64,000 bases of DNA from Spirochaetia bacterium. Lineage in GTDB: Bacteria > Spirochaetota > UBA4802 > UBA5550. Where the stretch lies: positions 1 to 64,000 of the forward strand of contig VFJS01000061.1 of assembly GCA_009885955.1 (NCBI GenBank), given 5' to 3'. Positions 22,123 to 43,875 of this stretch are shown in pieces. How positions within the stretch are numbered: the first letter of the stretch is position 1; the number at the start of each line of letters is the position of its first letter. A program made the position numbers and the translations under genes. The notes under the pieces are model-generated. The model searched no databases, was not told the origin of the DNA, and was given only the letters and a program-made list of their open reading frames with translations.

Positions 22123-22168
22123 ATCATCTCCCGGTTCCCGGTTGAACTCCCCCTTTTACGGGGCCCTG

Positions 22169-23371
22169 TCACTCAATCCCCCTGATTATCGATGGAATTT
22201 TTTCAATATCCTCCCATTCTATCCCGGCCGTGAGGGAGACCCTGATCCTCGATGTGCCTTTCGGCACAGTGGGGGGCCTGATGGGGAAAAGGAGAAAGCC
22301 CCTCTCCTGCAGTTCCGCGGAAACCCTCACTGTCCTGGAGTTGTCCCCGGTTATGATGGGGATGATATGGGTGGAACCGGTGCTCAGGAGCCCTGCTTGT
22401 ATAACGGAATCCCTGAACCTCGCTGCCAGCATCAAAAGCCTCTCCCTGAGCGGGCGGAAGGCATGCATCCTCTCGAGAACAAATTTATTCCATGAAAGGA
22501 CAACGGGCGGAAGGGCCGTGGAGAAGATGAGAGTACGCGCCCTGTTCACGAGGAAATCCTTTATAACGGGATGGGTCACGACCCATGCGCCCTGTGATCC
22601 CAGGGCCTTGCCGAAGGTGGCCATGAGTATGTCAATATCGCCAGCGGCCCCCTGCACTTCGCACATACCAAGGCCCTTTTCCCCGAAGACTCCGGCGGCA
22701 TGGGCTTCATCAACGAATAACATGACGTTGTAGGCATTCTTCAGCTCTACGAGCTTTTTCAGATCGGCCGCATCGCCGTCCATGCTGAACACCGATTCGG
22801 TGGCTATGATCACTTTATCGTACCCTCCCCTCATCTCTCTGAGGATCTCTTCAAGCCTGCCGTAGTCCAGATGGGGATAGGTCTCTCTCCGTGCCCTGGA
22901 GAGCCGTATGCCGTCGATGATGCTGGCATGGTTAAGGCTGTCCGAGAGTATGAGGTCCCCTTCGCCGGCAATGGCTGAAAAAATTCCGGCATTGGCATGG
23001 TAGCCGCTTGCAAAGACAAGGGCCTCGCGTTTTGCGCCGCCCGCGATTCCGGAGTAGAGGCTACCCAGGAGCCCCTCGAGGTCAGAATAAAGTGAATGGT
23101 TCCCGGTGAGAAGGCGGGACGAGGTGCTTCCGGGCCCGAAGGAATCCACCATATTGGATTCATCCATCGTCCCGTAAAAGCTCTTAATGAGATCCCTGTC
23201 GGTTGCAAGGCCGAGGTAGTCATTTGATGAAAGGTTAATCAGCCTCCCGCCCATGTAAGTTGCGTACTTTCCGTCACGCACCTCCAGGGTTTTCAGGAAC
23301 CGATAGGTATCATCATCCTTTATCCGCCTGATCTCATTCTCATAAAATGTATATAGGTGTTCTCCGGCCAT
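22169..23371 (-). CDS. bioF: 8-amino-7-oxononanoate synthase BioF
   Basis: The 400-residue PLP enzyme has GxGSTSSRLLTGNH near residue 80-92, DEAHAAGVFG (221-230) and the cofactor lysine Lys255 in ATFGKALGSQG. It condenses pimeloyl-ACP/CoA with alanine. Length and motifs fit BioF better than the related KBL enzyme, and the position between bioA and bioD supports this. It starts three bases after bioA ends. Confidence 0.95.
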   Translation of the reverse strand: MAGEHLYTFYENEIRRIKDDDTYRFLKTLEVRDGKYATYMGGRLINLSSNDYLGLATDRDLIKSFYGTMDESNMVDSFGPGSTSSRLLTGNHSLYSDLEGLLGSLYSGIAGGAKREALVFASGYHANAGIFSAIAGEGDLILSDSLNHASIIDGIRLSRARRETYPHLDYGRLEEILREMRGGYDKVIIATESVFSMDGDAADLKKLVELKNAYNVMLFVDEAHAAGVFGEKGLGMCEVQGAAGDIDILMATFGKALGSQGAWVVTHPVIKDFLVNRARTLIFSTALPPVVLSWNKFVLERMHAFRPLRERLLMLAARFRDSVIQAGLLSTGSTHIIPIITGDNSRTVRVSAELQERGFLLFPIRPPTVPKGTSRIRVSLTAGIEWEDIEKIPSIIRGIE

Positions 23372-23374
23372 GTA

Positions 23375-24667
23375 TCAACCCTCCTCCTCCACCGCCTCCA
23401 CCATAGATACTGCAAGCCGTTCCAGGTCGCTGCCGGCTATGACATATGGCGGCATGGTATATACCAGCCTGCCGAAGGGGCGCAGCCAAACCCCCTTGCA
23501 GGCAAGGCGCATAGTCATGGACTCCATGTCAACGGGCCGGCGGGTTTCAATGACGCCCACGCCCCCGAGCACCCTCACGTCGGCAACATTGGGCAGCCGC
23601 AAGGCCGGCGCCAGGAAGCGCCGCAGGGCTCCTTCAAGTTTTAATATGATATCCTCCATGGGATAAGTGCCGAGGAGCCGTATGCTGGCGGCGCTGATGG
23701 AGCAGGCAAGAGGATTAGCCATGAACGTAGGGCCATGCATGAAGGCCCGGGGCGCGGACTCCGAGATGGCATCGCTTATGTTCTCTGTAGTAATGGTTGC
23801 CGCAAGTGAAACATACCCGCCGGTCATGGCCTTCCCCAGGCAGAGGATGTCAGGGACAATGGTTGATTTGGGATGATGAAATGCGAAGAGTTTCCCGGTG
23901 CGCCAGAAGCCCGTAGCGATCTCATCGAATATTAATAATACCCCATGCTCATCGCAGAGCTCCCTTGCTTTTACCAGGTACTCCGGAGAGTAGAAACGCA
24001 TCCCGCCTGCGCCCTGCATTACCGGCTCCATTATGACAGCTGCGATATCGTCATGCTCTACGAGTAACTTCCTGAAGCCGGCAATATAACTGTCATCCCA
24101 GGACGCATCGAAACGGCACTGCGGCGCCTCGGCAAAGTAATTCTCCTGAACCATGTCGGAGAAAAGGCCGTGCATCCCGGTAACGGGATCGCATACCGAC
24201 ATGGCCCCGGCCGTGTCTCCGTGGTAACCGGATCGAAGGGCAAGGAACCTCTTCTTCTCAGGCTTCCCCAGGGAGTGCCAGTACTGCACCGCCAGTTTCA
24301 TGGCAACCTCAACTGCAACAGACCCGGAGTCTGAAAAAAAAATTTTGTCCAGCGGTGCCGGCACCAGTTCCAGCAGGAGTGATGCGAGCCCGGCAGCGGG
24401 GCCATGGGTCAGTCCGCCGAACATGACATGTGACATGGACTTCAACTGCTCTTCAGCTGCCAGGTTGAGCACCGGATGGTTGTACCCGTGTATCGCGGTC
24501 CACCATGAAGACATCCCGTCAATGAGCTCGCGGCCGTCCGAGAGCCTCAATCTGACGCCTGATGCCGACTCCACGGGAAAGGGGGTGACAGGGCATTTCA
24601 TGGAGGCATAGGGGTGCCAGAGGTGTTCCCTGTCGATTTTCAGAATCTCATGTCCCGATAATTTCAT
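23375..24667 (-). CDS. bioA: DAPA aminotransferase BioA
   Basis: The 430-residue class III aminotransferase has HLWHPYASMK near the N-terminus, SSWWTAIHGYNHP (residues 53-65), FDEIATGFWRTGK (247-259) and the PLP lysine Lys279 in LGKAMTGG, all characteristic of BioA. It makes 7,8-diaminopelargonate. It is the promoter-proximal gene of the bio unit; no clear BirA operator was found upstream. Confidence 0.95.
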   Translation of the reverse strand: MKLSGHEILKIDREHLWHPYASMKCPVTPFPVESASGVRLRLSDGRELIDGMSSWWTAIHGYNHPVLNLAAEEQLKSMSHVMFGGLTHGPAAGLASLLLELVPAPLDKIFFSDSGSVAVEVAMKLAVQYWHSLGKPEKKRFLALRSGYHGDTAGAMSVCDPVTGMHGLFSDMVQENYFAEAPQCRFDASWDDSYIAGFRKLLVEHDDIAAVIMEPVMQGAGGMRFYSPEYLVKARELCDEHGVLLIFDEIATGFWRTGKLFAFHHPKSTIVPDILCLGKAMTGGYVSLAATITTENISDAISESAPRAFMHGPTFMANPLACSISAASIRLLGTYPMEDIILKLEGALRRFLAPALRLPNVADVRVLGGVGVIETRRPVDMESMTMRLACKGVWLRPFGRLVYTMPPYVIAGSDLERLAVSMVEAVEEEG

Positions 24668-27548: not shown

Positions 27549-28145
27549 ATGAGCGGCATAGAAATCGCAGGAGTTATTTTCGGGCTCATATCAATATATT
27601 ATACCATCAAAGAAAATATTTGGTGCTGGCCCTCGGGGATCATAAATATAGGGCTCTTCTTTGCCCTCTTTTACCGGTCAAAGCTCTATGCGGACATGGG
27701 ACTTCAGGTTGTCTTCTTCATTCTGAGCATATACGGCTGGTATGAATGGCTCCGCGGCGGTGAAAAAAAAAGCGAGCTCCCCATATCCCGGATTTCGAAA
27801 CGCGGGTGGCAGATCATCATCCCGCTCATTATCTTCGGCACCGCAGGGCTCGGATATTTTCTCTCCTCCAGCACCGATGCTTCGCTCCCCTGGTGGGACT
27901 CCGCAGCAACGGTTCTCAGCCTCATTGCCCAGTACCTCCTTGCAGAAAAAAAACTTGAAAACTACCTCATCTGGATTGTGGTTGACATTCTGAGCATCGG
28001 CATATATTTCGTTAAGGAGCTCTATCTCACCGGCGCGCTCTTCTGTGTCTACCTGGTCTTTGCTTCAATAGGATATTATACATGGAGAAAAAGATATCGT
28101 GAAAACAAGCGGGTTGATACTGGGGAAATTCTATCCCCCTCATAA
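27549..28145 (+). CDS. pnuC: PnuC nicotinamide riboside transporter
   Basis: The 198-residue membrane protein begins with GLISIYYTIKENIWCWPSG and GLFFALFYRSKLYADMGLQ, the conserved PnuC core, and has about seven hydrophobic segments. It takes up nicotinamide riboside or a related NAD precursor. GGAGG lies just before the ATG. Its end overlaps nadR by 47 bases, so uptake and the first salvage step are coupled. Confidence 0.95.
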   Translation: MSGIEIAGVIFGLISIYYTIKENIWCWPSGIINIGLFFALFYRSKLYADMGLQVVFFILSIYGWYEWLRGGEKKSELPISRISKRGWQIIIPLIIFGTAGLGYFLSSSTDASLPWWDSAATVLSLIAQYLLAEKKLENYLIWIVVDILSIGIYFVKELYLTGALFCVYLVFASIGYYTWRKRYRENKRVDTGEILSPS

Positions 28146-29076
28146 GGGCCACCAGCACCTCATAGAATATGCAAGGGAGAGGGTTGATAGTCTCACGATC
28201 ATCGTGGGCTCCCTCTGCAGGGAGGCCATTCCCGGCGAATTGCGGTGCCGGTGGCTGAAAGAGCTCTATGACGATGTTGAAATCCTCCACCTCACCGATG
28301 AAAATCCCCAGGAGCCCCATGAACACCCCGATTTCTGGAACATCTGGACCGCGAGCCTCAGGAGGATCTATTCTTCGGGACCTGATTATCTGTTCTCCTC
28401 GGAAACCTACGGCGACAGGCTGGCCCGGTGCCTTGGCGCCGAACATGTACTGGTGGACCTTTCCCGCATAACAGTACCTGTATCGGGCACAGCGGTACGC
28501 GAGAGGCCCTATGAGAACTGGGAGTTTCTCCCGCCGCCGGTAAAGGCGTATTATGTAAAAAGGGTTGTGATCGTGGGCGCCGAGTCCACGGGCAAAACTA
28601 CCCTGGCGGAGAAACTGGCCGCCCGCTTCAACACCCTCTGGGTCCCGGAATTTGCCCGCGGCTACATCGATGATCACTACGGCAGTCTCGGCGGGATTAA
28701 GGATGATGATTTTTCTGTCTTTGCATTCGGGCAGGTTGCGAGCGAAGACAGAATGGCCAGGGAGGCAAACCGGATTCTCATCTGCGACACCGACGCCAGA
28801 ACGACATCCTACTTCAGCGACATATTCACCGGGAGATGCGACAGCTCCATATTAAGGCTTGCAGAAGAGAGGAAGTACCACCTTTATCTGCTCACGGGAA
28901 ACGACTTCCCCTGGGTCGAGGACTCCCAGAGAATAGACGAGAAACTGAGAGAGGCCTTCTTTCAGAGATGGGTGAAGGATCTTGAGAGGATGAAGGCAAA
29001 TTACGTTATTCTTAACGGAAGTTTTGAAGAGAGGTTCCATAAAGCCGAAAGCGCCATCAACGCCCTGTTCCGGTAA
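28099..29076 (+). CDS. nadR: NadR-type NMN adenylyltransferase / nicotinamide riboside kinase
   Basis: The 325-residue protein has an adenylyltransferase domain with GKFYPPHKGH (residues 9-18) and ISGT-like VSGTAVRERP, followed by a kinase domain with P-loop GAESTGKTTL (from about residue 160). It lacks the N-terminal helix-turn-helix of enterobacterial NadR, so it is enzymatic, not a repressor. It makes NMN and NAD from imported nicotinamide riboside. Start is a GTG inside the pnuC end. Confidence 0.93.
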   Translation: MKTSGLILGKFYPPHKGHQHLIEYARERVDSLTIIVGSLCREAIPGELRCRWLKELYDDVEILHLTDENPQEPHEHPDFWNIWTASLRRIYSSGPDYLFSSETYGDRLARCLGAEHVLVDLSRITVPVSGTAVRERPYENWEFLPPPVKAYYVKRVVIVGAESTGKTTLAEKLAARFNTLWVPEFARGYIDDHYGSLGGIKDDDFSVFAFGQVASEDRMAREANRILICDTDARTTSYFSDIFTGRCDSSILRLAEERKYHLYLLTGNDFPWVEDSQRIDEKLREAFFQRWVKDLERMKANYVILNGSFEERFHKAESAINALFR

Positions 29077-29910: not shown

Positions 29911-30741
<831 letters not shown>

Positions 30742-31431: not shown

Positions 31432-32853
31432 TCATAACTCGCTGACAAAGGGGATAACCTTCCCGCCGCGGCTGTCCATCCCCAGGCCTTCATCAAACAT
31501 GACCGTGAGCGGCAGGCCGCCCAGCACATTCTCCAGCGCAGATATCACCAGTTTTTCATCGGGCTTTGAATCCATGGATACCGGCCTTAGTATCAGCTCG
31601 CATGACAGGTCTCTCCTCTGGATGAACCTGTGCTGAACATAGGAGAACCTCTTCAGCGACTGTGAGATGTCCACGGGGTTGATAAGGCTGCCGTCACCCT
31701 TTCGGAGGAGCACGGGTATCCTCCCCTCCAGGCCCCTGATCCTGGGCATGGGATCTCCGCAGCTGCAGGGCGAAATGTCAATGTATCCGAAATCTCCCAT
31801 CCTGTACCTGAGCAGAGGAAGGAAGGGGTTCCTCCCCCCGGTAATTACAATCTCCCCCCTTTCTCCATGGGGAAGGGGATTGCCGTCCGGGCCTGCAATC
31901 TCAATATATATGTCGTGGGGAAGTATATGAAACCCGTCGTCTTCCGGGCAGGTATAGGCTATGGGCCCGGTCTCGTTGGACGAGTACCAGTCAATGACCG
32001 GGCACCGGTAAAATTCCCGGAGCTCCTTTTTCAGTCCCGCGGCCATGGCAACGGCCGTGGATATGATGGCCTTCGGCCTGTATGATATTCCCTGCTTCAG
32101 CATTTCGGCAAAGGATATGGGGTCGCCGTTCAGGAAAAAGGGGTTCATGGCATGAGAGTATTCATCCGCGGCGCCGGCATGGGGCCATTCGGAGGATTTC
32201 AGGTTTATCTTGATAAAACCGGCCCCGCCCCATGAGGTCACAACAGTGGCGCATGTCACGGTATGGTTCTGCGCTCCAACGAGTATGGTGGCAACCATGC
32301 TATCGTTCCATTCCGGAGAGAGGCCGTGGCGTCGGAGCACGAAATCAACCATGGGCTCATAGCTGCACGCGCCAACGGGGTGCTGGACAACCTTGATGGC
32401 ATGCCCCGTGGTCCCGGCAGTATTAAAAATTACGATCCGTTTAATATCAGCGCCATCAGGGATAAACATCCCGGGCCTTCGCGCAAGGTCCTCCCTGGAC
32501 ATGAAGGGTACCTCTGTCCATCCCTTTTCCAGGTCATATTCCGCACCGGGTCGTGTCCTGAATGCCGGAACTTCAGGAAGCAGCAATTTCATCTTTTCCA
32601 TAATGGCCGGTGAAGGGATGCCGGCGGCCCACTGCCCGGGTGACCTTTTTTTCCAGAGGCTGTCCCCGAAAGAATTCACTACACTGAGATCTTCAATTGT
32701 GAGCCTGTCGCCGTAATGGGAATTCCAGATGGGGGCCGAGGGGTGGTCCTTCATTTTGCTGATTAAAGCGGCCCACGAGGGCTTTATGAGCGGGGTGTGC
32801 TCTGCAAGCCTGTATTTGTTTCCTTTAATATCTATATTTTCCATATGTGTCAT
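31432..32853 (-). CDS. PaaK-like adenylate-forming enzyme
   Basis: The 473-residue protein has the AMP-binding loop NTAGTTGHAIKV (around residue 145), YSSNETGPIAYTC and LRYRMGDFGYID, typical of the phenylacetate-CoA ligase/CapK-F390 synthetase branch, and CSCGDPMPRIRGLEGR, a cysteine-containing segment of that branch. It should activate a carboxylate with ATP. It is the last of five coupled genes with the AAA ATPase and the VWA protein, which is an unexpected neighbour for a metabolic ligase. It starts two bases after the preceding stop, with AGGGA upstream. Confidence 0.85.
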   Translation of the reverse strand: MTHMENIDIKGNKYRLAEHTPLIKPSWAALISKMKDHPSAPIWNSHYGDRLTIEDLSVVNSFGDSLWKKRSPGQWAAGIPSPAIMEKMKLLLPEVPAFRTRPGAEYDLEKGWTEVPFMSREDLARRPGMFIPDGADIKRIVIFNTAGTTGHAIKVVQHPVGACSYEPMVDFVLRRHGLSPEWNDSMVATILVGAQNHTVTCATVVTSWGGAGFIKINLKSSEWPHAGAADEYSHAMNPFFLNGDPISFAEMLKQGISYRPKAIISTAVAMAAGLKKELREFYRCPVIDWYSSNETGPIAYTCPEDDGFHILPHDIYIEIAGPDGNPLPHGERGEIVITGGRNPFLPLLRYRMGDFGYIDISPCSCGDPMPRIRGLEGRIPVLLRKGDGSLINPVDISQSLKRFSYVQHRFIQRRDLSCELILRPVSMDSKPDEKLVISALENVLGGLPLTVMFDEGLGMDSRGGKVIPFVSEL

Positions 32854-32855
32854 TG

Positions 32856-33515
32856 CTAATCCCTGGTGACCTTACTCGATTCATTCTCCCTGTCGATCTC
32901 CTCCTGTATCTTCCTCTGGCGCTCGGCCTCCTCGAGCCTCCGCTTCTTCTCCTCGGTCCGCTTTTTCTCCAGCATAATCTGGTGCTCTCTCGATTTTTCA
33001 ACTATCCGCTTCTGCTCTGCGCTGTCAATAATGTTGAACCTGTCCCTGGCCTGGCTCTCGTCCTCCCCATCAGGCCTGTAACCGAGAAATGCCAGGACGT
33101 AACGCACGAGTTCCTCCCTCCTGTCCGGTTCGGAAACAAAAAGCCCTGCCCGTACAAGAGATGCATGCTCCCTGAGCCCGGAGATGAGGAGTTCCATCAT
33201 TTTTTCCCTGAATCCAGGGATGGCCTTTGCGTTGTCCCTGAACCATGCATGGAACAGAAGCCATGCCGCAACCTGGACAACGAGGAGGAAATTCCTGTTC
33301 CCGGGATTATTATTGAGCTCAAATATCCCTTCACCTTTTTTGCTTAAACCAATGCCCCCGGTGATCCTGGATAGATCGGAAACCACCGCCGAGGTACTGA
33401 TAGTCCCTTCATGCATGTTTTCAGCATTCAGGAGCATGGGCTCCATGAGAAAATATTCCGGGCATTCGGCCAGGTGTGAGGTTAACAGTTCAAGTACCGG
33501 GCCTTCCTTATTCAT
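32856..33515 (-). CDS. protein of unknown function with charged helical tail
   Basis: The 219-residue protein has a mixed N-terminal domain (about 1-130) and a strongly charged helical or coiled-coil tail from about 160, with repeated KKRTEEKKRRLEEAERQRK-type heptads. GGAG is five bases before the ATG, which overlaps the VWA gene stop by eight bases. It may bridge the operon proteins. No family is recognised. Confidence 0.65.
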   Translation of the reverse strand: MNKEGPVLELLTSHLAECPEYFLMEPMLLNAENMHEGTISTSAVVSDLSRITGGIGLSKKGEGIFELNNNPGNRNFLLVVQVAAWLLFHAWFRDNAKAIPGFREKMMELLISGLREHASLVRAGLFVSEPDRREELVRYVLAFLGYRPDGEDESQARDRFNIIDSAEQKRIVEKSREHQIMLEKKRTEEKKRRLEEAERQRKIQEEIDRENESSKVTRD

Positions 33516-35289
33516 AATTTCTCCTGCTGAACTCCGAAGCGAATATAATGATATCCTCCCATGTACTTATGGTATACACATTCCATCCTTCATCATTCAT
33601 CCTCTTCATATTTTTAGAATCCGTTGAATAGGGTGAATGGAGCACATAGGTCCCGCCGCCTGCGGCATTGGCAAGGGAGATCCTTGCCACGTCCCAGCCG
33701 TCGTTGGTCTTATAGGTGTCGCTCCGGATATCATCGGACTTCTCCTCGAGCATTGAAAAGATATCGGAATCGGTGATAACGATTATATGTACGGGGTTGT
33801 CGCCTTTCCTTCTTTTGAAAAATGTCTTTGCCAGGCGGCGGATACCGAAGGCATAGCCGGTGCCCAGGTAGCCGGTGAGCACCTTTAAAATTTCATACTC
33901 GCTCCTTTCAAAACCCTCAGTGGACATGGAGCTCCCGGGCTCGCCTGAAAGCACAACCATGACCCTTGCCCCTGCCCTGAGGGCCGAGAGGGCCATGATG
34001 ACACCTGCAAGCACCGGGTAGGACAGGGTGTACTGGGGATTGGGCATGGACCCGGAACAATCGATGCCGATGTAGAGATCGAGGGGAACCCTGGACGGCG
34101 TTGAGCCGGGGCTATCGCCGTAGACCCTCTGAACCGTGGTTATGCCCGGCACGGGCCTGGGGCTCACCATGATGGAATCAAACCAGCTCACATCCTCCAT
34201 GGGCATGCCGATGTCCCATGTCTCCAGGCCTTCGGGCAGGGGGTCGCTCTTTTCGCCGATCTTCTTCTCGGGAAACCGTACAAGATACGGCAGGGCCCTC
34301 TCCTTGTAATAGCGCAGGGCAATGTCATGGTCGGTGAGGTCTTTCCTCATGGCCCTTAACAGCGTCCCGTATTCCGAAACTCCCCTGAAGTTCTTCCGGC
34401 TTTTTATACCCCCCTTCTCAGCCTTGCCACCTCTCCTGCTGCCGGCTTTTTCATCTTCACCCTTCTCTCCCGGATCCATGTCATCCATTCCGGCAAGATT
34501 TCTGTCCATGGAGGGATGGACCGGCGCCTCCATTTCTCCGTCGTCCATCCCGGTGAGCCCCGAGGGTTCACCCCCCTCCCCTGCATTTCCTGTGTCCAAC
34601 CACCCCTTCGTCTGAACCGGTGATCCGGCACCCTGGCCGTCGGGTAGATAGATGTAGCAGAGAGCGGCAAAGGAGCCGGCTCCGTCGATCCAGTCCCTGG
34701 CATAAAACCTCACGAGCCTGGCCCCGAGCCTGGCATCTGCCTCCATCACCTGATCCACATCTGAATCCGTAAGCGTCCCTGAATGAAGGGACCAGAGTAT
34801 TTCATATATGCGCATGTAAAAATTCCAGAGAGGCCCCCCGTCCTTATCTTTTAACGCCTGGTAGACGCCGGCTATGTTAACGCAGAACCTCCTCTGCAGC
34901 CTGTCGTTGATGAGCAGGTCGGAGTATAGATTGGAGACAAGGGATGCATGATCCTCCTTTTCAGGGAGGCCCTGCCGTATCCTGGCAATCATGAATCCCA
35001 GGTCGGTGAGGTCCGACGGGCAGTATATGTGGTGGCCGATTTCGTGTGCCATGATCTCAACGGCAAAATTTTCAAGGTGCCGTTTAACCACATCGCTGAG
35101 GCTGATGACAACGGAATGATCAATAAGGCGAATCATTGCAAAGTTGCCGCCCATTCCCTCTTTTTCACTTTCCCTGCTGTCTATGCACCACCGGGGCTCC
35201 GAGAGCCTGGCAAAACCGCTCCAGACCCCCAGGGCATCGGGCCATAACCGGAGCCATGCCTCCCTGAGTTCACGCAAATTACCGGGCAT
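33508..35289 (-). CDS. zincin-like HEXXH protein fused to a VWA domain
   Basis: Residues 78-90 contain HEIGHH with the zinc-peptidase HEXXH motif (His82, Glu83, His86), followed by NLYSDLLINDRL as a likely third-ligand helix. A low-complexity, acidic Gly/Lys linker runs from about 220 to 300. Residues 405-560 form a VWA domain with an intact MIDAS motif DCSGS (410-414) and a ITDSDIF loop. This is the DUF2201-like architecture found next to MoxR ATPases. Such pairs may remodel protein complexes; the target is unknown. The start overlaps the previous gene by 11 bases and lacks a strong ribosome site. Confidence 0.8.
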   Translation of the reverse strand: MPGNLRELREAWLRLWPDALGVWSGFARLSEPRWCIDSRESEKEGMGGNFAMIRLIDHSVVISLSDVVKRHLENFAVEIMAHEIGHHIYCPSDLTDLGFMIARIRQGLPEKEDHASLVSNLYSDLLINDRLQRRFCVNIAGVYQALKDKDGGPLWNFYMRIYEILWSLHSGTLTDSDVDQVMEADARLGARLVRFYARDWIDGAGSFAALCYIYLPDGQGAGSPVQTKGWLDTGNAGEGGEPSGLTGMDDGEMEAPVHPSMDRNLAGMDDMDPGEKGEDEKAGSRRGGKAEKGGIKSRKNFRGVSEYGTLLRAMRKDLTDHDIALRYYKERALPYLVRFPEKKIGEKSDPLPEGLETWDIGMPMEDVSWFDSIMVSPRPVPGITTVQRVYGDSPGSTPSRVPLDLYIGIDCSGSMPNPQYTLSYPVLAGVIMALSALRAGARVMVVLSGEPGSSMSTEGFERSEYEILKVLTGYLGTGYAFGIRRLAKTFFKRRKGDNPVHIIVITDSDIFSMLEEKSDDIRSDTYKTNDGWDVARISLANAAGGGTYVLHSPYSTDSKNMKRMNDEGWNVYTISTWEDIIIFASEFSRRNYE

Positions 35290-36313
35290 GGCTGCGTACC
35301 GCGATGAGGAAAAGGTGGTGGGATTCCGGAATAGTCACCGCCATGGTAAAGGTGCTGCAGGCAAAGCTCGATGCACCGGCAAGTTCATGGAAATCCCCCT
35401 TAAGGCCGCCAAACTCCGCGGCCCCGGCGGAATTGATTGTACCTCTGCATACCGGTCCGCCGCCCGCGAGAAGGGACGGGTCAACCTTCGTCAGGGTGGT
35501 CCCGTAAATATCTGCGGATATAATGAATGACAATTTCCCGTCATAGGCAACAATCCTCCCCTCAACCGTTTCAACAAGGGGCGGTGAAATGAAAGGGCCG
35601 CCAAAGCCGCGGAATCCGCCGGCCGATGAAACCATTTCCAGGTGTCTTGCGGCCCCACCGGCCGGCAGGGGATGGTCCTGGGGATGGAACCAGGGGTCAC
35701 CCTCCAGGGAATTCAGAACTGAAGCAAGCTCATTGCCGGCAACAATTTCCGGAATGCCGAGGATTATCCTCTGAACAGGGGGCTGAAATTTTTTTATAAG
35801 GTCAAGGGCACTGTCCCGGTAATGGGCCAGGCCGCACCTCCAGGCAAGGGCCTTGCCGTAATCAAGCAGCTCTTCTTTATTCCCTGCATGGCCCGCCAGG
35901 GAGACAAGGGTTTTCTCCCAGGCCGCTGCGGAATTGTAGGATGTCAATGAAAGGTTATAGATGGCATTGGCCGCGATTCTCGGAAAGGAGACCGGGTCCA
36001 CAATAAAATAGCGGATATAGGAGAGCATGATATTTCTCCACAGACCCCTCAGGCCGGCTGCGGCGCTGAACATCCTACTCCCCAGGGCCTCGATCCCGAA
36101 ATCGTAGAGGGCTTCGCATATTTCTCGCGGCGTCCTGCCCCCATGCATTGACGCGGCATCGGCAACGGGCTGTGCGTCTTCTGCAAGGAAGAAGGAAAAC
36201 TCCGCTGCATGAAGGCCCGGGTAGACCCTGCGCATGGCATGGAACCTGCTGTTGTATTCACCCTGCCGCGCGCTCAACTCCAGTGCCAGGACGCCTTTTA
36301 TCAATCCTTCCAT
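35279..36313 (-). CDS. unrecognised protein of the AAA-VWA operon
   Basis: The 344-residue protein has an alpha-helical first half (about 1-190) and a second half rich in Gly, Ser and beta strands (about 200-330). No signal peptide, catalytic motif or known domain is evident. It overlaps the AAA gene stop by 13 bases and the VWA gene start by 11, so it is translationally coupled to both and is likely a dedicated component of the same complex. Confidence 0.7.
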   Translation of the reverse strand: MEGLIKGVLALELSARQGEYNSRFHAMRRVYPGLHAAEFSFFLAEDAQPVADAASMHGGRTPREICEALYDFGIEALGSRMFSAAAGLRGLWRNIMLSYIRYFIVDPVSFPRIAANAIYNLSLTSYNSAAAWEKTLVSLAGHAGNKEELLDYGKALAWRCGLAHYRDSALDLIKKFQPPVQRIILGIPEIVAGNELASVLNSLEGDPWFHPQDHPLPAGGAARHLEMVSSAGGFRGFGGPFISPPLVETVEGRIVAYDGKLSFIISADIYGTTLTKVDPSLLAGGGPVCRGTINSAGAAEFGGLKGDFHELAGASSFACSTFTMAVTIPESHHLFLIAVRSHAR

Positions 36314-37875
36314 TTCAGCCAGCGCAGATAGTTTGTATACCGCTGATGCAGATACTTCAGTTTAATGACATTGTCATAGATATGGCCGTAGATCTTCCTC
36401 TCCTCACTTATCTTTTTCAAAATCTTTTCGATCTTTGCAAGCTCCTTCCTCACGTCTTCTTCGCCCACGCCGTCAAGCCCCCTGTCAAACGTTTCTTCAA
36501 GGTCTCTCAGGGGATCATTTTTATCAAGGTCCAGCTTGTCATACTCCGCGCAGGACATGTCGAAGAGCTGCCGTATCCAGCCTATCCTGTCGCTCCGGTA
36601 CACGTTGTTCCTGTCCTGGGAAAAAAAAGGGGAATCCTGGTTGGGGACAAGCTTGTCGTGAAGGACAAAGGGGATCACCTGCCTGGTGTCCTCCAGGGAT
36701 ACCGTGGAATCGCCCCTGAAATAAGCAATGGCCTTTACAAAGGTCAGGATGGTCATGAGGGCCCTCACTGAAAGGCCGTTGTTTGTCTGGCTGCCGAGGT
36801 CCTTTATTTTGTCCTTCCCCGTATCCATGGAGGAGAGGATATGAAAATCCAGGCCCGAAAGCTTCACCGTGTCCTTGGTCTTATACTCGAGCTGGTGCGC
36901 GGCATATTCAAAAAATTCGAACTGGCTCGCAAAAAACTCAATTCTACGGAGGAGCTCAGCGGGTACCGATACGGACAGGAGCTCCCTGTTCATCCTGCTG
37001 ATCTCCTCATCATTGAATATAATCTGCTTCGGAACGATCTCCTCGGGCTTAATGTTGTCCTCGATCCGGGACAATAACTCGCCCAGGAACCTGGTGTTGA
37101 AATGGAGCGCCTTCACGACGATATCGATCCTGTCCCTGAGGGCCTCAATGACCTGGTAGGTGCCTCCGCCTGCTTCATCATTGGCAGTGAGGTACCAGGC
37201 CGCTTCAGGGCACTCATAGATCTGGTCAAGGATCTCGGCATAGTTGTCTGCCATGACCGTGAGGAGGCAGGACTGGGTCCTTGTCGGTATCCTGTTATAC
37301 TCATCAATGATCTTCACCCTCATCCCCAGCCATTTCCTCCAGGCAATGCGGATATCCGACATGTTCTGTGCGTTTACCAGGTCAGCAGGGAGCGGGTTTC
37401 CCAGGAGATCGGTAATGGTCATCTGTGGCTGGCCGTGCTGGATAGCACGCTTGAGCTCCTTTATGGGATACCCGGCAAGGATCCCCATGAGTATAGCACT
37501 GGCGGTCTTCCCCCTGCCCGGGCCGCCGACAAGAAGGCACCTTTTTCTCGTTGCCAGGTTAAGGAGGGGAAAAAGAATAAAGCTCGAGTAGCTCTGCCCT
37601 GAAGGGAGGAGCATCCTGCTCTTCATATCCCCCAGTGGAAAGGAGAGGGACGGCCCATCCTGGTACTCAATGTCGTAATAGGGGCTGATAATGGCATTGT
37701 TCACCATCCAGAAATAGGCCTGCCTCAGCTTTTCATCAAGGCCGGAACTCTCCTCTGACACCCCGGCTTCACCTGCCAGGGGGCCCTGGTAGAGATCTGC
37801 CACATCGAACTTTTTGATCTTTTTTGCCTTAATGGGGTTAGTGGGGGATTGGGAAATTTTTTCTGTCTTGTTCAT
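36301..37875 (-). CDS. MoxR-type AAA ATPase
   Basis: The 524-residue protein has Walker A GGPGRGKT (117-124), Walker B KIIDEYNRI (188-196), a sensor-1 TANDEAGGGTYQ segment and an arginine-containing ALRDRID stretch, as in MoxR/CbbQ ATPases. These work with VWA proteins to insert cofactors or remodel complexes. AGGGA precedes the ATG. It is the first gene of a five-gene unit with overlaps at each junction but the last. Confidence 0.88.
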   Translation of the reverse strand: MNKTEKISQSPTNPIKAKKIKKFDVADLYQGPLAGEAGVSEESSGLDEKLRQAYFWMVNNAIISPYYDIEYQDGPSLSFPLGDMKSRMLLPSGQSYSSFILFPLLNLATRKRCLLVGGPGRGKTASAILMGILAGYPIKELKRAIQHGQPQMTITDLLGNPLPADLVNAQNMSDIRIAWRKWLGMRVKIIDEYNRIPTRTQSCLLTVMADNYAEILDQIYECPEAAWYLTANDEAGGGTYQVIEALRDRIDIVVKALHFNTRFLGELLSRIEDNIKPEEIVPKQIIFNDEEISRMNRELLSVSVPAELLRRIEFFASQFEFFEYAAHQLEYKTKDTVKLSGLDFHILSSMDTGKDKIKDLGSQTNNGLSVRALMTILTFVKAIAYFRGDSTVSLEDTRQVIPFVLHDKLVPNQDSPFFSQDRNNVYRSDRIGWIRQLFDMSCAEYDKLDLDKNDPLRDLEETFDRGLDGVGEEDVRKELAKIEKILKKISEERKIYGHIYDNVIKLKYLHQRYTNYLRWLKWKD

Positions 37876-38684: not shown

Positions 38685-40220
38685 TCAATAATCCGAATTT
38701 TTCCAACCCTTTAAATAATAACTATAAAGGACAGGACGGTTAAAGGAATTAATCCCGGTCTCTGATATTGATGTGTCCATGGGAAAATAAAGGGAATTGA
38801 TAAAAGCCTCCCAGGAAAAATAGGAAAATCCTTCCATCTCCCTTTTATCAGGCTTAAAACTCACTGGATTGATATTCTCATTGGAAGCAATGTTGAACCC
38901 CCAGTCGCCGAAGGATGGTATAAACACATGGTAGGGAACAACATTCCTGAAGACCCTCCCAAGGGTACGGTTGATGCACCAGAAGGCATCCCTGGCAAAC
39001 AACGGCGATGTGGACTGCGTAACAAAGATGCCTCCCGGCTTCAGGGAACGGCGCACCAGTGAGAAAAATTCCACGGAGTAAAGTTTGGAAATCGTTTCGT
39101 CGTGGGGGTCGGGAAAATCGGCAATAATGATGTCGTATGTTTCGCTGCTCTTCATCAGATACGAATAGGCCTCACCCACAATCACCCTGACCCTGCTGTT
39201 TTCCAGGGATTTTTTGTTGAGCATGGACATTGAGGAATTATACCTGGCAAGGTCGATCATGGCCCTGTCGAGCTCTACCAGGGTTACCGACTTTACATCG
39301 CCCTTCCTGAGAATCTCCCTCACTGCAAGCCCGTCGCCTCCGCCCAGGACAATAACATCCTTTGATTGGCTCCCGTTCATGAACAGCGCAGGGAATACAA
39401 GCATTTCATGATACCGGTATTCGTCCGATGCAGAAAACTGAAGCGATCCGTCGAGGTAGAGCCTGAAGTCCCTGCCGCTTCTTGTGAGGACGATCTCCTG
39501 AAAATCAGACCTCTTGGAGTAAATGATATCATCATAATAGAGCCTCCTCTGCATCACCTGGGTCAGGGCATCGGATTTATAGGCGAGTATTGAAAGCAAT
39601 ACGATAAGCAGGGCAGGCACAAGAAGATGCAACTTTCTTTTCCCCGGATATTCAATTTTTACCATGACCAGGAGAGCCACCCCCATGTTTATCAGGCCGA
39701 TGATGAAGCTCGAAAGGAGCCTGCCTGCCACAGGGAACAGGAGGAGCGGAAAGAGCAGCGAGCCTGCAAGCCCGCCCATGTAGTCCAGAGTGAGAACATT
39801 TGATATAATGTCTTTGAACGCTCCGTGCTTCTTCAAAATGCGCGTCAGGAGGGGTATCTCCAGCCCCACCATGGTTCCGATTAACACGAGAAAAAACAGG
39901 TGGAGCAGGTAGTATGACGGTGAAAAGGAGAAAACCATGGAAAGGACCAGGACCGAAAGGCCTCCCGTAAAACCCAGGGCGGTTTCAATGATGATAAAGT
40001 CCCGGAGGATATTATTCACGAGAAATCTGGAAAGGAAGGAACCGATCCCCATGGAGCTGAGAAAAACCCCGATTGTTATTGAATACTGCTGCACCGGGTT
40101 TCCCAGGAGATAGGTAGCCAGGGAACCGAGGACGAGTTCATATATAATTCCGCAGAGTGAAAGTACAAAGACAGAAAAGAGAAGTAATTTTTCCTCGGAA
40201 AAGTTTAATGTCCTCTTCAC
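38685..40220 (-). CDS. speE: membrane-anchored spermidine synthase-like protein
   Basis: The 511-residue protein joins about seven N-terminal transmembrane segments (residues 1-225) to a polyamine aminopropyltransferase domain with VLGGGDGLAVREIL (about residue 290), VTLVELD and IIADFPDPHD. The membrane-fused form is common in clusters with DUF350 and DUF4178 genes. It overlaps the DUF350 gene by four bases. No AdoMet decarboxylase is present nearby, so the aminopropyl donor must come from elsewhere. Confidence 0.88.
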   Translation of the reverse strand: MKRTLNFSEEKLLLFSVFVLSLCGIIYELVLGSLATYLLGNPVQQYSITIGVFLSSMGIGSFLSRFLVNNILRDFIIIETALGFTGGLSVLVLSMVFSFSPSYYLLHLFFLVLIGTMVGLEIPLLTRILKKHGAFKDIISNVLTLDYMGGLAGSLLFPLLLFPVAGRLLSSFIIGLINMGVALLVMVKIEYPGKRKLHLLVPALLIVLLSILAYKSDALTQVMQRRLYYDDIIYSKRSDFQEIVLTRSGRDFRLYLDGSLQFSASDEYRYHEMLVFPALFMNGSQSKDVIVLGGGDGLAVREILRKGDVKSVTLVELDRAMIDLARYNSSMSMLNKKSLENSRVRVIVGEAYSYLMKSSETYDIIIADFPDPHDETISKLYSVEFFSLVRRSLKPGGIFVTQSTSPLFARDAFWCINRTLGRVFRNVVPYHVFIPSFGDWGFNIASNENINPVSFKPDKREMEGFSYFSWEAFINSLYFPMDTSISETGINSFNRPVLYSYYLKGWKNSDY

Positions 40221-40495
40221 TGCTTGTTGATTTTCATTTCGGCCGGGGGGTTCTCAATTTTCCTTGATGCCGTGCTTGGCGACATGATGACCGACGCGAT
40301 GATTATTGAAATGCCGATGATAACAGCCCCGATAATAATCCCCAGCGATATGTTCTGGTCGTCTTCTATCTCTTTTTTCACCGAGAAGGGCGCAAAAAAA
40401 TTGATGATTAAAAAGCCCACTCCCATCAATATAATCCCCACCAGGGAATAGATTGCCGTATCGATGATGCCGGTTAAAATGTTATTCCAGTCCAT
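40217..40495 (-). CDS. DUF350 membrane protein
   Basis: The protein (92 residues from the ATG at 40495) has two transmembrane segments, IYSLVGIILMGVGFLIINFF and the GIIIGAVIIGISIIIASVI region, as in DUF350. GGAGG lies eight bases before this ATG; an ATG six codons earlier overlaps that site and is rejected. DUF350 proteins recur with polyamine and PspA-type membrane modules; their action is unknown. Confidence 0.85.
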   Translation of the reverse strand: MDWNNILTGIIDTAIYSLVGIILMGVGFLIINFFAPFSVKKEIEDDQNISLGIIIGAVIIGISIIIASVIMSPSTASRKIENPPAEMKINKQ

Positions 40496-40529
40496 GGTTA
40501 AAATCCTCCACATTTAAAATTTTCATTTA

Positions 40530-40715
40530 TCATTTGCCTCCTCTGAAACCCCTGGGACCCCCTGCGATGAAACCGCTCCCATGACGGATGGACTTCCTCA
40601 TCTCCCGGTGCTTCGAGATGTAATCATTCCCGGCCCTGGGATATCCTACAAGAAAATGGGACATGGCAAAGCCTCCTCCCAGCAATATCAGGGCAATTGC
40701 AATATATTTAGCCAT
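40530..40715 (-). CDS. small single-pass membrane protein
   Basis: The 61-residue protein has one N-terminal hydrophobic segment (about residues 4-25) and a basic Gly/Arg-rich tail (RHGSGFIAGGPRGFRGGK). It lies in the operon between DUF4178 and DUF350, with short gaps. No family is recognised. Confidence 0.65.
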   Translation of the reverse strand: MAKYIAIALILLGGGFAMSHFLVGYPRAGNDYISKHREMRKSIRHGSGFIAGGPRGFRGGK

Positions 40716-40735
40716 ATTCCCGCCCCCAAAATAAA

Positions 40736-42118
40736 TTATTTAGATGCAACATCAAAGGGGAGTTCATTATACATCCGTGCCTTTGTAATGTTGACAATGA
40801 TTAACACTATCATGAGCACGGCAGCTATGAGATAGTATCTTACGCTCCCGGCTGCCGTTAACGAATATTTCACCGAATCTATCTCCCTCTTCTTTTCACT
40901 GTAGAGCTCAAGGTAGGCGTAATATTTCCCCGGCTCGTCAATAACAAAGGATGATGAACCCCGTAAATCATTTTCATGCCACGTACCTTCGCTATCGACA
41001 CCCTTCTCATCCCAGAAATCCCCTGCCATTGTATAGGACTCAAGGGGGTCTTTCAGGGCATCTATTTCACTGAAAAGATTTTTGAGGACCGCTATGCCCG
41101 TCTGGCTGTCAGTTGCTTTTTTAAAATTGTCTTCTTTAAGCAGCATGAACCTGAAGGACTGCCATGAGAGGTTGAGGCGCTGAACTTTTTCATCAATATA
41201 AATATCAACATCATAGAGGCCGTTTTTCCTTGAAAGTTCAAAGGGCCCGTACACGACCTGGCTGAAATAGCTGCTCTGGCTGTTTTCAGACACTGGCTCG
41301 TTGCTTGTGATGACGCTCTTCCCCACCATTACATTTTTTACAGTTTCATAGGAGGCATAGCTGTAGATGGCAAGGATGAAAGATAACATGGCCCCCGCAG
41401 TGAATATGAAACTGCCTGTACGGTAGAGCCTCCTCTTACTCATCGTGTTTTCATAGGATTTCCTCACGTCCTCCCTGCCGAAGGCCTGGATATAATCCTT
41501 GTATGAAACAGTAACACCCATGGTCACGGAGACTTCATCATCCGTCTGTTCTATGGTAAAATTGCGGCCATCCTTTTTAAAATCATAGCAGGTTACGGCC
41601 TCGCCGATTTCAGGCTTCCATGTGAGCTCTCCCTCGAAAAAAACAATGCGGCCCGAGTAGGCTGTGTCCCTGTTTATTTTTTTTCCTTCGAATATAATCG
41701 ACGAGGTATCGGACTCCAGGTCTATGGATTCGGGAACATACTCCTCGTAGGAATTCAGCTCCCCGTCCTCCTCGACGAAATAGTGCTGCACCCCGTCACT
41801 CGATACGGCAAGCCATTCGTCCCATGTGGACTTCTCGTATTCGTCCTCCTCCTGCATCCTGATCCTGCCGATGATTTCATATTCCACGCCGCCCAGGATC
41901 CCCTTGAGGCCGAGTTTGAACATGGAATTTCCGACGTCCTGGGTAAAGTCATCGGCGAAATACCGGTAAAACTCCCCGGTGTACTGGTCATACTCTTTTC
42001 CGCAAGAGAGGCACCTGCCTATGGGTGCCTCTTCATCTTCGTCAACGGTGCGGTAGGTCTTGACGACATCCCCGCCGCAGCCCGTACATTTCAGCTTGCT
42101 GTTTTCACCCTTTCCCAA
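40736..42118 (-). CDS. DUF4178 membrane protein with zinc ribbon
   Basis: The 460-residue protein begins with a CxxC pair (CTGCGGD, CLSCGKEYD) forming a zinc ribbon, then a DUF4178 domain (about 70-200; EYEIIGRIRMQEE..WDEWLAVSSDG), a transmembrane segment near 237-257, a lumenal or periplasmic domain and a final transmembrane segment near 430-450. The start appears to be a TTG with GGGAGG about ten bases upstream. It ends 20 bases before the small membrane gene. Confidence 0.82.
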   Translation of the reverse strand: MGKGENSKLKCTGCGGDVVKTYRTVDEDEEAPIGRCLSCGKEYDQYTGEFYRYFADDFTQDVGNSMFKLGLKGILGGVEYEIIGRIRMQEEDEYEKSTWDEWLAVSSDGVQHYFVEEDGELNSYEEYVPESIDLESDTSSIIFEGKKINRDTAYSGRIVFFEGELTWKPEIGEAVTCYDFKKDGRNFTIEQTDDEVSVTMGVTVSYKDYIQAFGREDVRKSYENTMSKRRLYRTGSFIFTAGAMLSFILAIYSYASYETVKNVMVGKSVITSNEPVSENSQSSYFSQVVYGPFELSRKNGLYDVDIYIDEKVQRLNLSWQSFRFMLLKEDNFKKATDSQTGIAVLKNLFSEIDALKDPLESYTMAGDFWDEKGVDSEGTWHENDLRGSSSFVIDEPGKYYAYLELYSEKKREIDSVKYSLTAAGSVRYYLIAAVLMIVLIIVNITKARMYNELPFDVASK

Positions 42119-42120
42119 TG

Positions 42121-42732
42121 TTACGGGCCCTCCCCGGCAATTTCTATATCTCTTCTGAGCAAGGGCCTTCCGGTAAATATTTCCACTTCATCATCGGTCA
42201 TCTCTATTGAAACTTTTTTCCCTTCACTGATGCCGTCAAGAAAAGTGACCCTGGTTCCCGGCTCCTGGTAGTAGTAGAGCTCCCCCTCGCCGCTCTCAAT
42301 TTCCGCTATACCTTTCTCCTTTATCATGACCTTCTTTCCCCCGACAATCATGTTCTGCCCGGCCTTTATTTTCTCAGGGTCGGGTAAGTCGGCAGCTTCC
42401 AGCATCTCGAAATATATGGCATAGGTGCCGTCGTCCTCGGCAAACCATGCAGTGCCCCCGTCATATTCAAGGAACCATTCATCATAATGGGCGCCCTTGC
42501 AGGCATACCTCATCCTGCCCAGGGCCCTGAAGGGCTTCCCGAGAATCGTCCCGCTGGAACCTACGCTGAAAATTGAAGGGTATTCGGCAAGTTTCGGATA
42601 TTTTCCCGAAATATCAAGTCCGCTGTCGGTTATCCGTAAATGCGTTCCACAATAGCCGCACACCACAACCTTGCTGAACCTGTTTACAATTGCAACAGGC
42701 GCACCGCATGATGTGCAGCCGAGGGACGGCAT
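42121..42732 (-). CDS. DUF4178 protein with zinc ribbon, soluble
   Basis: The 203-residue protein has CTSCGAPV and CGYCGTHL, a four-cysteine zinc ribbon, and a DUF4178 domain with YDEWFLEYDGGTAWFAEDDG. It lacks transmembrane segments and looks like the soluble partner of the next, longer DUF4178 protein, two bases downstream; the two probably arose by duplication. Confidence 0.82.
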   Translation of the reverse strand: MPSLGCTSCGAPVAIVNRFSKVVVCGYCGTHLRITDSGLDISGKYPKLAEYPSIFSVGSSGTILGKPFRALGRMRYACKGAHYDEWFLEYDGGTAWFAEDDGTYAIYFEMLEAADLPDPEKIKAGQNMIVGGKKVMIKEKGIAEIESGEGELYYYQEPGTRVTFLDGISEGKKVSIEMTDDEVEIFTGRPLLRRDIEIAGEGP

Positions 42733-42747
42733 ATTATGTTAAAAGCC

Positions 42748-43875
42748 TTACTGCTGTTCGCCGCACTCAGGGCAGAACTTTGCCCCGGGCTTCAGCTTGG
42801 CATTGCACTTTTTGCAGTTTGAGCCCTGAAGATTGGCGCCGCATTTCGGGCAGAACTTCGCTCCCGCAGGGATGTTTTCCTTGCATGACGGACACGGCTC
42901 CGTAGCTACGACCATTTCCTTCCCGCATGAAGAACAGAATTTGGCAGCGGCCGGATTAACCGTATTGCAGTGGGGGCACTGTTTCTGGCCCTGCTGCTGC
43001 TGGCCCTGTCCGCCGCCCATCATGTTGCCCATCATGTTGCCCATCTGGTTTCCCATGCCCATGCCCATTCCGGCGCCCATCATGCCCCCGGCCATTCCAT
43101 CGCTGCCGGCGGCCTTCTCCATGGTGTCAAAGGTCCTCTTCATCTTGTAGTCATCGCCGCCCATGATGTTTATCTCGGCCTTGTCCGCCAGGGCTTTTTT
43201 CAGCCTCTTGACTGACTCGTCCTCTTCGGGAATATTTATGGATTCAACGGCAAACCGGAGAAGCTCAATGCCGAAACTGGAAAAATCCTCGAGCATCTTT
43301 GCCTTGCCCGCGGTCCCGATCTCATCATAGTATGCAACGAGTTTAAGGATTGTGATGCTCTGCTTGATCATGAACTCGGCAATGAGATCCTGGATCTTCG
43401 GCATGATAATCTGGTCACGGACCCCGGAACCAATGGCATCGGTTGTGAAGGCCTGCCATGTCCCGATGGCCGTAATAAGGAAGCTCTTTATATCCTTGAT
43501 CCTTATGGAATAGGATCCGAAGGCCCTGATGGGTACGGGAATATTATAAATGGGGTCAAGGAGCTGAATCGGCTGTTTTGTCCCCCATTTCAAATTCGGG
43601 ATTTCGGACTTATTAATAAAGTATACCTCTGCAGGGAAAGGGGTCTTTCCTCCAAAGGGAATGTTTATGAGTTTTCCAAGAAGGGGAATGTTCTGGGTAA
43701 CCAGGGTGTGCCTCCCGGGGCCGAAGGAATCCAGGGCCTGGCCGTTCTTGAAAAATATTGCCTCCTGCCCCTCCTTGACTATGAGCTGGGATCCAACGGC
43801 AATATCCCCCTCCTTGAACCTGTTTATCACCTCACCGGGAGCATTATTCCATTCAACAACATCAAGAAGCGCCAT
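42748..43875 (-). CDS. SPFH-domain protein with C-terminal zinc ribbons (YdjI-like)
   Basis: The 375-residue protein has an SPFH/band-7-like domain (about 25-240; GPGRHTLVTQNIPLLGKL), a Gly/Met/Gln-rich linker (about 255-300) and three zinc-ribbon units with CPHC, CSSCGKE, CPSC, CPKCGA, CKKC and CPECGEQ. It resembles Bacillus YdjI, which forms membrane-linked assemblies with PspA-type proteins. GGAGG is eight bases before the ATG. Confidence 0.88.
   Translation of the reverse strand: MALLDVVEWNNAPGEVINRFKEGDIAVGSQLIVKEGQEAIFFKNGQALDSFGPGRHTLVTQNIPLLGKLINIPFGGKTPFPAEVYFINKSEIPNLKWGTKQPIQLLDPIYNIPVPIRAFGSYSIRIKDIKSFLITAIGTWQAFTTDAIGSGVRDQIIMPKIQDLIAEFMIKQSITILKLVAYYDEIGTAGKAKMLEDFSSFGIELLRFAVESINIPEEDESVKRLKKALADKAEINIMGGDDYKMKRTFDTMEKAAGSDGMAGGMMGAGMGMGMGNQMGNMMGNMMGGGQGQQQQGQKQCPHCNTVNPAAAKFCSSCGKEMVVATEPCPSCKENIPAGAKFCPKCGANLQGSNCKKCNAKLKPGAKFCPECGEQQ

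Follow-up and report, generated by a model that had tools for sequence, protein, structure and literature searches.

Among the closest described systems are pairs of a MoxR-type AAA+ ATPase and a VWA protein, which activate dedicated enzymes, for example NorQ-NorD (PMC13036017, PMC9976466). In NorQ-NorD, as in the locus described here, the ATPase adjoins a VWA protein with an N-terminal domain and a C-terminal VWA domain with intact DxSxS-T-D MIDAS. Our module differs in several respects: its VWA protein has a HEXXH domain, nitric oxide reductase genes are absent, and it adds co-inherited B344, D219 and a PaaK-like ligase, together with NadR/PnuC or radical-SAM enzymes. CbbQ-CbbO, RavA-ViaA and other MoxR/VWA pairs share the two-gene AAA+/VWA core and the expected ring-plus-plug remodelling, in which a finger of the VWA protein would plug the pore of the AAA hexamer, but no gene of a known MoxR/VWA client enzyme was seen in the module, including rubisco and fumarate reductase, the clients of CbbQ-CbbO and RavA-ViaA. 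To our knowledge, neither a ligase nor an orphan protein or a zincin accompanies these pairs. Rubisco activases are said to be further MoxR/VWA pairs that activate a dedicated enzyme.

Literature searches found no description of the module. It is strongly conserved and present in many phyla, including the cultured genera Massilia, Duganella, Lysobacter, Stenotrophomonas, Dyella, Microbulbifer and Chitinimonas, and it adds two protein families (B344, D219) without known fold or family.

Composition and conservation of the five-gene unit

The window is a stretch of 64,000 nucleotides from a Spirochaetia bacterium. Its five ORFs, all with ATG starts, were re-derived at the positions given in the initial annotation (Table 1), with the same overlaps of 13, 11 and 8 bp and the same 2-bp gap before the last gene.

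Table 1. Genes of the module in the window
Feature	Position	Strand	Length	Basis or description
Gene 1, AAA, MoxR-type AAA+ ATPase	36301..37875	-	524 aa	Pfam AAA_3, AAA_lid_2; invariant Walker A/B
Gene 2, B344, orphan protein	35279..36313	-	344 aa	Helical N-terminal half (1-205), beta C-terminal domain (223-341)
Gene 3, ZnVWA, zincin-VWA fusion	33508..35289	-	593 aa	Motifs conserved over 18 homologues; 21/296 phylum genomes
Gene 4, D219, orphan protein	32856..33515	-	219 aa	Helical domain and 54-residue C-terminal helix (165-218), end -KVTRD
Gene 5, LIG, PaaK-like adenylate-forming enzyme	31432..32853	-	473 aa	PDB profile match; conserved motifs
PnuC, nicotinamide-riboside transporter	27549-28145	+	198 aa	NMN_transporter PF04973, TIGR01528; convergent to gene 5
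NadR-type NMN adenylyltransferase / ribosylnicotinamide kinase	28099-29076	+	325 aa	TIGR01526, AAA_28, NadR structures

AAA matches Pfam AAA_3 (8.5e-7) and AAA_lid_2 (7.3e-7), both above gathering scores, and its closest PDB sequence is 2r44. The Walker motifs noticed at the outset (A, GGPGRGKT; B, KIIDE) are invariant among 16 homologues, with 57-69% identity. With its AAA_3-type domain, Walker A and B, sensor 1 and AAA_lid_2, the protein has the features of a MoxR AAA+ ATPase, and the complete MIDAS of the adjacent gene 3 product is that of a MoxR AAA+/VWA pair. This MIDAS consists of D410-x-S412-x-S414, T479 and D507 (invariant or at least 90% conserved in 18 homologues), and the Pfam VWA match is sub-threshold. 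The HEXXH motif, reported earlier along with the MIDAS, is HEIGHH at 82-87, likewise kept in the 18 homologues; N120-x-Y122-x-D124-x3-N128 follows. We consider the protein a putative metallopeptidase. The initial annotation had called the fusion DUF2201-like, which holds as architectural resemblance only, because none of the 18 homologues matched the Pfam DUF2201 models (DUF2201_N / DUF2201) at E<=0.1; membership in DUF2201 was rejected on this result.

The fifth protein had been described as PaaK-like with an AMP-binding loop, and this agrees with our results. A profile search of PDB returned PaaK-type ligases (9s3l, 6e-25), the Pfam AMP-binding match (E=1.3e-6) is just under cut-off, and the P-loop, YSxNExGP and LRYRxGD are conserved, as in PaaK/ANL enzymes. 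LIG was rejected as an equivalog of either DVU_1553 or PaaK, since both NCBIfam scores are below cut-off: the best match, the DVU_1553-family AMP-dependent CoA ligase (9.9e-33), reaches 113.6 bits of the 300 demanded, and TIGR02155 31.9 of 646.3. A LIG-PnuC fusion at one locus (L051), in which the ligase end is lost, is probably an annotation or assembly effect and was left out.

The 344- and 219-residue proteins, unrecognised at first reading, remain without Pfam family, and although their AlphaFold models are confident, no fold in PDB matches them. For B344 (pLDDT 94.5, pTM 0.90), Foldseek against PDB gave no fold match at E<=0.001, and none of 60 homologues belongs to a Pfam family, isolated weak matches aside. 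Its conserved positions are R17, N21, W132, R166, GGFRGFGG and D268-x-x-G271. The D219 model (pLDDT 96.4) is helical; no Pfam family was found for it, nor a useful fold match by Foldseek against PDB.

All five genes occur together in 55 of 80 loci from many phyla, and 50 of these 55 complete loci keep the same order and strand across phyla. Further, the zincin-VWA protein and D219 have an identical presence pattern in the window's phylum: both are found in one and the same set of 21 genomes out of 296. The PaaK-like gene and the two unrecognised proteins, whose linkage to the AAA-VWA genes had been noted in this one window, are thus regular members of the unit. Conservation of the neighbourhood had been named beforehand as a test of the five-component idea, and the idea came through it with joint inheritance across many phyla. 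That the five genes form a conserved, co-inherited system is in our opinion practically certain. That unrelated genes lie together by chance, or as an operon confined to one genus, has in its favour only that the first reading rested on a single window; it is refuted by the kept gene order and by the identical presence of two members, and is next to impossible.

Intergenic distances reveal a further regularity. Gaps of at most 100 bp separate AAA from B344 in 51/55 loci, B344 from ZnVWA in 54/55 and D219 from LIG in 52/53, and foreign genes are inserted mainly at the ZnVWA-D219 joint. The unit splits into two submodules, AAA-B344-zincin/VWA and D219-ligase.

NAD salvage partners and the radical-SAM alternative

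At 27549-29076 in the window, convergent to the five-gene unit, lie genes for PnuC and NadR, absent from the initial annotation because they are outside its interval; it also lacked the radical-SAM partners, the two-submodule split and the invariant C-terminal tail of D219. PnuC matches PF04973 (3.2e-59) and TIGR01528, both over cut-off. The NadR-type protein scores 275.2 bits with TIGR01526 (7.3e-82; cut-off 341, not reached), matches AAA_28 over cut-off (1.1e-35) and NadR structures (2.4e-45), and has both domains, GKFxPxHxGH and Walker A.

PnuC and/or NadR adjoin the module in 35 of 47 testable loci, in several orientations. Within the window's phylum, 20/21 genomes with the module have NadR, against 33/275 without it (Fisher 7e-16); counted by genus, the figures are 11/11 against 13/127 (4e-10). 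PnuC was found in 17/21 carrier genomes and in 1/21 chosen comparison genomes. We conclude that PnuC and NadR belong to the same module and are very probably linked in function to the five genes, which would connect a MoxR/VWA machine with the salvage of NAD precursors.

There is, however, an exception: in six genomes, all of one ligase clade, NadR was not found, and two radical-SAM genes lie beside the ligase instead. The ligases of radical-SAM loci form a single clade (support 99/97) that extends over four phyla. One locus (L055) contains two D219-ligase pairs, one of the NadR type and one of the radical-SAM type. No homologue of the paired radical SAM enzymes was found in the window's genome.

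One might object that PnuC and NadR are ordinary vitamin-salvage genes that travel with a unit unrelated to NAD. The 33 phylum genomes that have NadR without the module would fit this, as would the missing NadR where the radical-SAM pair is present. In addition, nadA was found in 21/21 carriers (one match just under cut-off), so scavenging is not needed; the carriers as NAD auxotrophs were rejected on the same ground. Mere travelling is nevertheless improbable, because several different arrangements place PnuC/NadR beside the module, most carriers without adjacent NadR have it elsewhere in the genome, and full-length high-scoring NadR occurs in 19/21 carriers versus 2/275 others.

The strong NadR/PnuC association could also indicate an NAD-linked stress or anti-phage system that senses or restores NAD, with the zincin/AAA part as conditional effector. 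The AAA-plus-protease architecture and the sporadic distribution of the module are compatible with such a role. Against it, PADLOC gave no convincing match (only one to IetA, which spans 22 residues at E=0.035), viral contigs, phages and plasmids yielded no relative, no defence neighbour is conserved, the ATPase is very highly conserved, and NadR is not found in the radical-SAM clade. We rejected a known anti-phage defence system on the negative searches, and consider the NAD-linked variant quite unlikely.

In vWA-MoxR ternary conflict systems (VMAP and FtsH types), MoxR and VWA also share one operon, and some contain radical SAM or a zincin metallopeptidase; such systems carry VMAP and effector parts (PMC7159879). 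Our module has no VMAP/effector component or diversifying parts: B344 and D219 are without convincing Pfam or PADLOC match, and a VMAP-type third component with effector domains was not found. The ATPase is unusually conserved (57-71% identity), not diversifying. A vWA-MoxR conflict system in this sense was therefore rejected. From the initial interpretation, the co-inherited five-gene unit stands, whereas the conflict-system reading is not supported.

The D219 tail and possible roles of the ligase

The last residue is exactly Glu in 59/61 D219 homologues, preceded by Arg in 53/61, and the near-invariant family end reads -K-W/Y-T/S-R-E. None of the other module families has a conserved C-terminal end. 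The window's own D219 and the copy at locus L097 end in Asp, evidence against a reaction strictly at a gamma-carboxylate like that of Pup or LysW. An overlapping ligase start was rejected as the cause of the tail conservation: the tail is encoded by varied codons (Arg six, Glu two, all three stops) and kept in 20 loci where the ligase starts without overlap. It is thus conserved at protein level.

We tentatively favour a model in which the AAA/B344/zincin-VWA machine acts on D219, a carrier or adaptor, and the PaaK-like enzyme serves the D219 C-terminus, although our confidence stays short of an even chance. The MoxR ring, B344 and zincin-VWA protein would make up a remodelling machine that is driven by ATP and contains its own putative metallopeptidase, and D219 would be its dedicated partner. 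D219, most likely a carrier or adaptor, would work with the adjacent adenylating enzyme: its C-terminus would enter the ligase and be activated or loaded there, and the machine would then remodel or release loaded D219. The substrate side would rely in most genomes on salvage of nicotinamide riboside, with PnuC for import and NadR for synthesis of NMN/NAD, and in one ligase clade on the two radical-SAM enzymes. Complex formation, protease activity, tail loading and a product are what we infer here. A more specific version is doubtful: D219 might be a new protein carrier or tag. Its Arg-Glu end, once adenylated by the ANL/PaaK-type enzyme, would be linked to a metabolite or protein, and the MoxR AAA+/VWA machine, which would have a metallopeptidase of its own, would unload or unfold the conjugate; nicotinamide-riboside salvage or radical-SAM chemistry would feed the pathway.

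The logic of C-terminal loading is already known. In LysW/ArgW, encoded beside an ATP-dependent ligase, the Glu of the C-terminal EDWGE (compare KW[TS]RE of D219) is loaded by LysX/ArgX (PMC10433800). Pearlin carrier peptides receive their load at the C-terminus, are then altered by further enzymes, in one case a radical SAM, and are released by a protease; one such cluster also holds radical SAM and a metalloprotease (PMC9303977). In contrast to both, D219 is helical, some 200 residues long and lacks the LysW zinc ribbon, the module ligase is of ANL type, not ATP-grasp or PEARL, and D219 loading is conjectural. Pup-PafA-Mpa resembles the module in a C-terminal Glu, conserved in nearly all D219 homologues though not in the window's copy, with a helical charged region, a ligase, an AAA+ ATPase and a protease, but the D219 end is -RE (Asp tolerated), not -GGE/Q, and no PafA/Dop-, proteasome- or Mpa-type gene was recognised in the module. 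Neither homology of D219 to LysW or Pup nor a LysX or PafA partner was found.

The favoured model has to be weighed against maturation of a client in the classical MoxR/VWA manner, which we regard as a real possibility, held with similar reserve. The client would then be the ligase, a CoA or AMP ligase of the usual small-molecule kind. D219 would stabilise it as an adaptor, its tail docked without a covalent bond on the AAA ring, the MIDAS of the VWA domain or the ligase, and the zincin would process or inspect the client. The motifs of LIG are those of small-molecule PaaK enzymes; small carboxylates are the usual ANL/PaaK substrates, and we know of no enzyme of this family that acts on a protein C-terminus. 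The MIDAS is intact, an acidic C-terminus is plausible as sixth ligand of its metal, and Asp is tolerated at the D219 end. By analogy with the C-terminus of NorD, which contacts NorQ (PMC13036017), the conserved tail may do no more than dock. On the other hand, a generic ligase client needs neither the near-constant D219-ligase pairing nor a D219 that never occurs without the core (296 phylum genomes), and client maturation by itself leaves the exchange of NadR for radical SAM unexplained. The client of the AAA/VWA pair may be the ligase or D219.

Because of the near-invariant tail and the exchange between NadR and radical SAM, the function can be tested directly. Loading of the tail by the ligase would be a new way to activate the C-terminus of a protein; a tail that only docks would still give MoxR/VWA machines a new client class. 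The earlier guess of an "activating enzyme" as target of the ATPase/VWA pair lives on in the ligase-as-client alternative.

Composition and spread of the five-gene module

All five ORFs reported by the initial annotation were found at their positions (Table), with overlaps of 13, 11 and 8 bp followed by a 2-bp gap, compatible with one coupled unit. Pfam and NCBIfam searches assigned gene 1 to AAA_3/AAA_lid_2 (MoxR-type ATPase), gene 3 to VWA with a sub-threshold match (zincin-VWA fusion, ZnVWA) and gene 5 to AMP-binding/PaaK-type enzymes (the ligase), and gave no family for genes 2 and 4, which encode orphan proteins of 344 and 219 residues (B344, D219). In gene 3, the HEXXH motif and every MIDAS position are kept across 18 homologues; since none of these (0/18) matches the Pfam DUF2201 models, the suggested likeness to DUF2201 stands for architecture and not for family. 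The structure prediction advised for the orphans gave confident AlphaFold models, namely a helical half plus beta domain for B344 (pLDDT 94.5) and a helical domain with a 54-residue terminal helix for D219 (pLDDT 96.4), neither with a PDB match at E<=0.001.

Positions of features in the window
Feature	Position	Strand	Remark
MoxR-type ATPase	36301-37875	-	gene 1
B344	35279-36313	-	gene 2
ZnVWA	33508-35289	-	gene 3
D219	32856-33515	-	gene 4
PaaK-like ligase	31432-32853	-	gene 5
PnuC + NadR	27549-29076	+	opposite to ligase, 2.4 kb from it
YARHG lipoprotein-like ORF	29911-30741		
CT repeats of YARHG ORF	30700-30735	-	about 13 repeats
Membrane-fused polyamine aminopropyltransferase, DUF350, two DUF4178 proteins, Band-7 zinc-ribbon protein	38685-43875	-	directly upstream, same strand as module
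AAA_26, class I/II aminotransferase, class III aminotransferase	21415-24667	-	three adjoining genes; domain matches

The proposed linkage recurs: all five genes are present in 55 of the best 80 loci, 50 of them with order and strand kept. These 80, many truncated by contig ends, are the best of at least 246 ATPase relatives found among GTDB species by scanning with the ATPase alignment. They come from Betaproteobacteria, Gammaproteobacteria, Verrucomicrobia, Planctomycetes, Acidobacteria, Chloroflexi, Myxococcota, Melainabacteria, Desulfobacteraceae, Gemmatimonas, KSB1, Nitrospinota and others. Within Spirochaetota, the window's phylum, gene 3 occurs in 21/296 genomes and D219 in exactly the same 21, even when on a separate contig; the five-gene order is repeated around the gene 3 matches. 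The window ATPase shares 71% identity with betaproteobacterial copies and 57-69% with aligned phylum homologues, which suggests horizontal transfer. No relative was met in viral contigs or plasmids searched with the ATPase, or in phages searched with ZnVWA.

Two submodules and their partner genes

Spacing is at most 100 bp for ATPase-B344 (51/55 loci), B344-ZnVWA (54/55) and D219-ligase (52/53), while the ZnVWA-D219 joint is open (>600 bp) in 22/53 loci. The module consists of two submodules, ATPase-B344-ZnVWA and D219-ligase. At least 13 loci hold a radical-SAM gene within the joint. A single such gene (about 320-340 aa, CNLxCxFC) stands there in loci L077, L080, L095, L097, L099, L103, L113, L115, L124 and L125; two of the inserted proteins were checked and come nearest to SPASM-type maturase families, with scores far under cut-offs.

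Beyond the ligase lie PnuC, a nicotinamide-riboside transporter, and NadR, separated from it in the window by a DUF2442 gene and the YARHG ORF. One or both adjoin the module in 35/47 loci with enough flank, be it downstream (same strand or convergent) or upstream (same strand or divergent). NadR is found in 20/21 genomes carrying the module versus 33/275 others (Fisher 7e-16) and in 11/11 carrier genera versus 13/127 others (Fisher 4e-10), values that ignore shared ancestry, for which the genus-level count corrects partly. For PnuC the counts are 17/21 carriers and 1/21 genomes of a hand-picked, non-random comparison set. Because nadA is kept, carriers are not simple scavengers. The CT run opening the YARHG ORF encodes Leu-Ser repeats of the signal region, which makes this ORF a candidate phase-variable gene.

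In six loci (L056, L057, L063, L090, L094, L096) two adjoining MoaA-like radical-SAM genes follow the ligase, and NadR was not found in any of the six genomes; as their completeness is unreported, a lone absence is weak evidence, 6/6 is not. Other carriers lacking an adjacent NadR mostly have it elsewhere, except L107 and L052, the latter on a truncated contig and with an ATPase resembling those of L056, L057 and L063. The ligases of the paired-radical-SAM loci group together in a single supported clade (99/97), with members from Melainabacteria, Planctomycetota, Verrucomicrobiota and Betaproteobacteria. Moreover, L055 (14409-20065) contains two D219-ligase pairs, one of this clade and one of the NadR-type group, each beside its own partner. 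Ligase type thus goes with the partner genes, and both types are served by the ATPase-B344-zincin core. The NadR relative of L055 seems to possess the adenylyltransferase half only. The window ligase and several of its clade carry, ahead of the GLEGR motif, a CxCG that is missing in NadR-type ligases of Gamma- and Betaproteobacteria.

The D219 terminus and a possible mechanism

The last residue of D219 is exactly Glu in 59/61 homologues, with an Arg-Glu end in 53/61 (consensus EEAA[SD]K[WY][TS]RE; -KVTRD in the window); conserved ends were sought in other module members and none was found. Six codons for Arg, two for Glu and three different stops are in use, and 20 loci retain the tail although it is free of overlap with the start of the ligase gene, which shows that selection acts on the protein.

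Most likely, D219 would have a dedicated remodelling machine, made up of the ATPase ring, B344 and ZnVWA, and would itself constitute the chemical half together with the PaaK-like enzyme. We tentatively favour a reading in which the D219 end is presented to the ligase and activated or loaded there. Known examples of free conserved C-termini beside ATP-dependent ligases are LysW/ArgW (EDWGE, with LysX/ArgX as the loading enzymes; PMC10433800), Pup (PMC5358908) and pearlin carrier peptides (PMC9303977), which D219 resembles in logic, not by homology. A docking role of the tail is about equally thinkable: the NorD C-terminus touches NorQ, and a target protein supplies the sixth ligand of the MIDAS metal (PMC13036017). 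The main rival, in which the ligase is a client and docking is non-covalent, is nearly as probable as the favoured reading. The link to NAD is retained under both tail-loading and docking.

We found no description of MoxR/VWA/NadR/PnuC/PaaK/zincin/radical-SAM combinations in the open-access literature; a report outside it may have escaped us. We judge the system a new version of the MoxR/VWA type; it would count as categorically new only under the tail-loading reading.

As to other genes of the window, those directly upstream of the module look like a separate operon, and the three at 21415-24667 resemble bioD/bioF/bioA.
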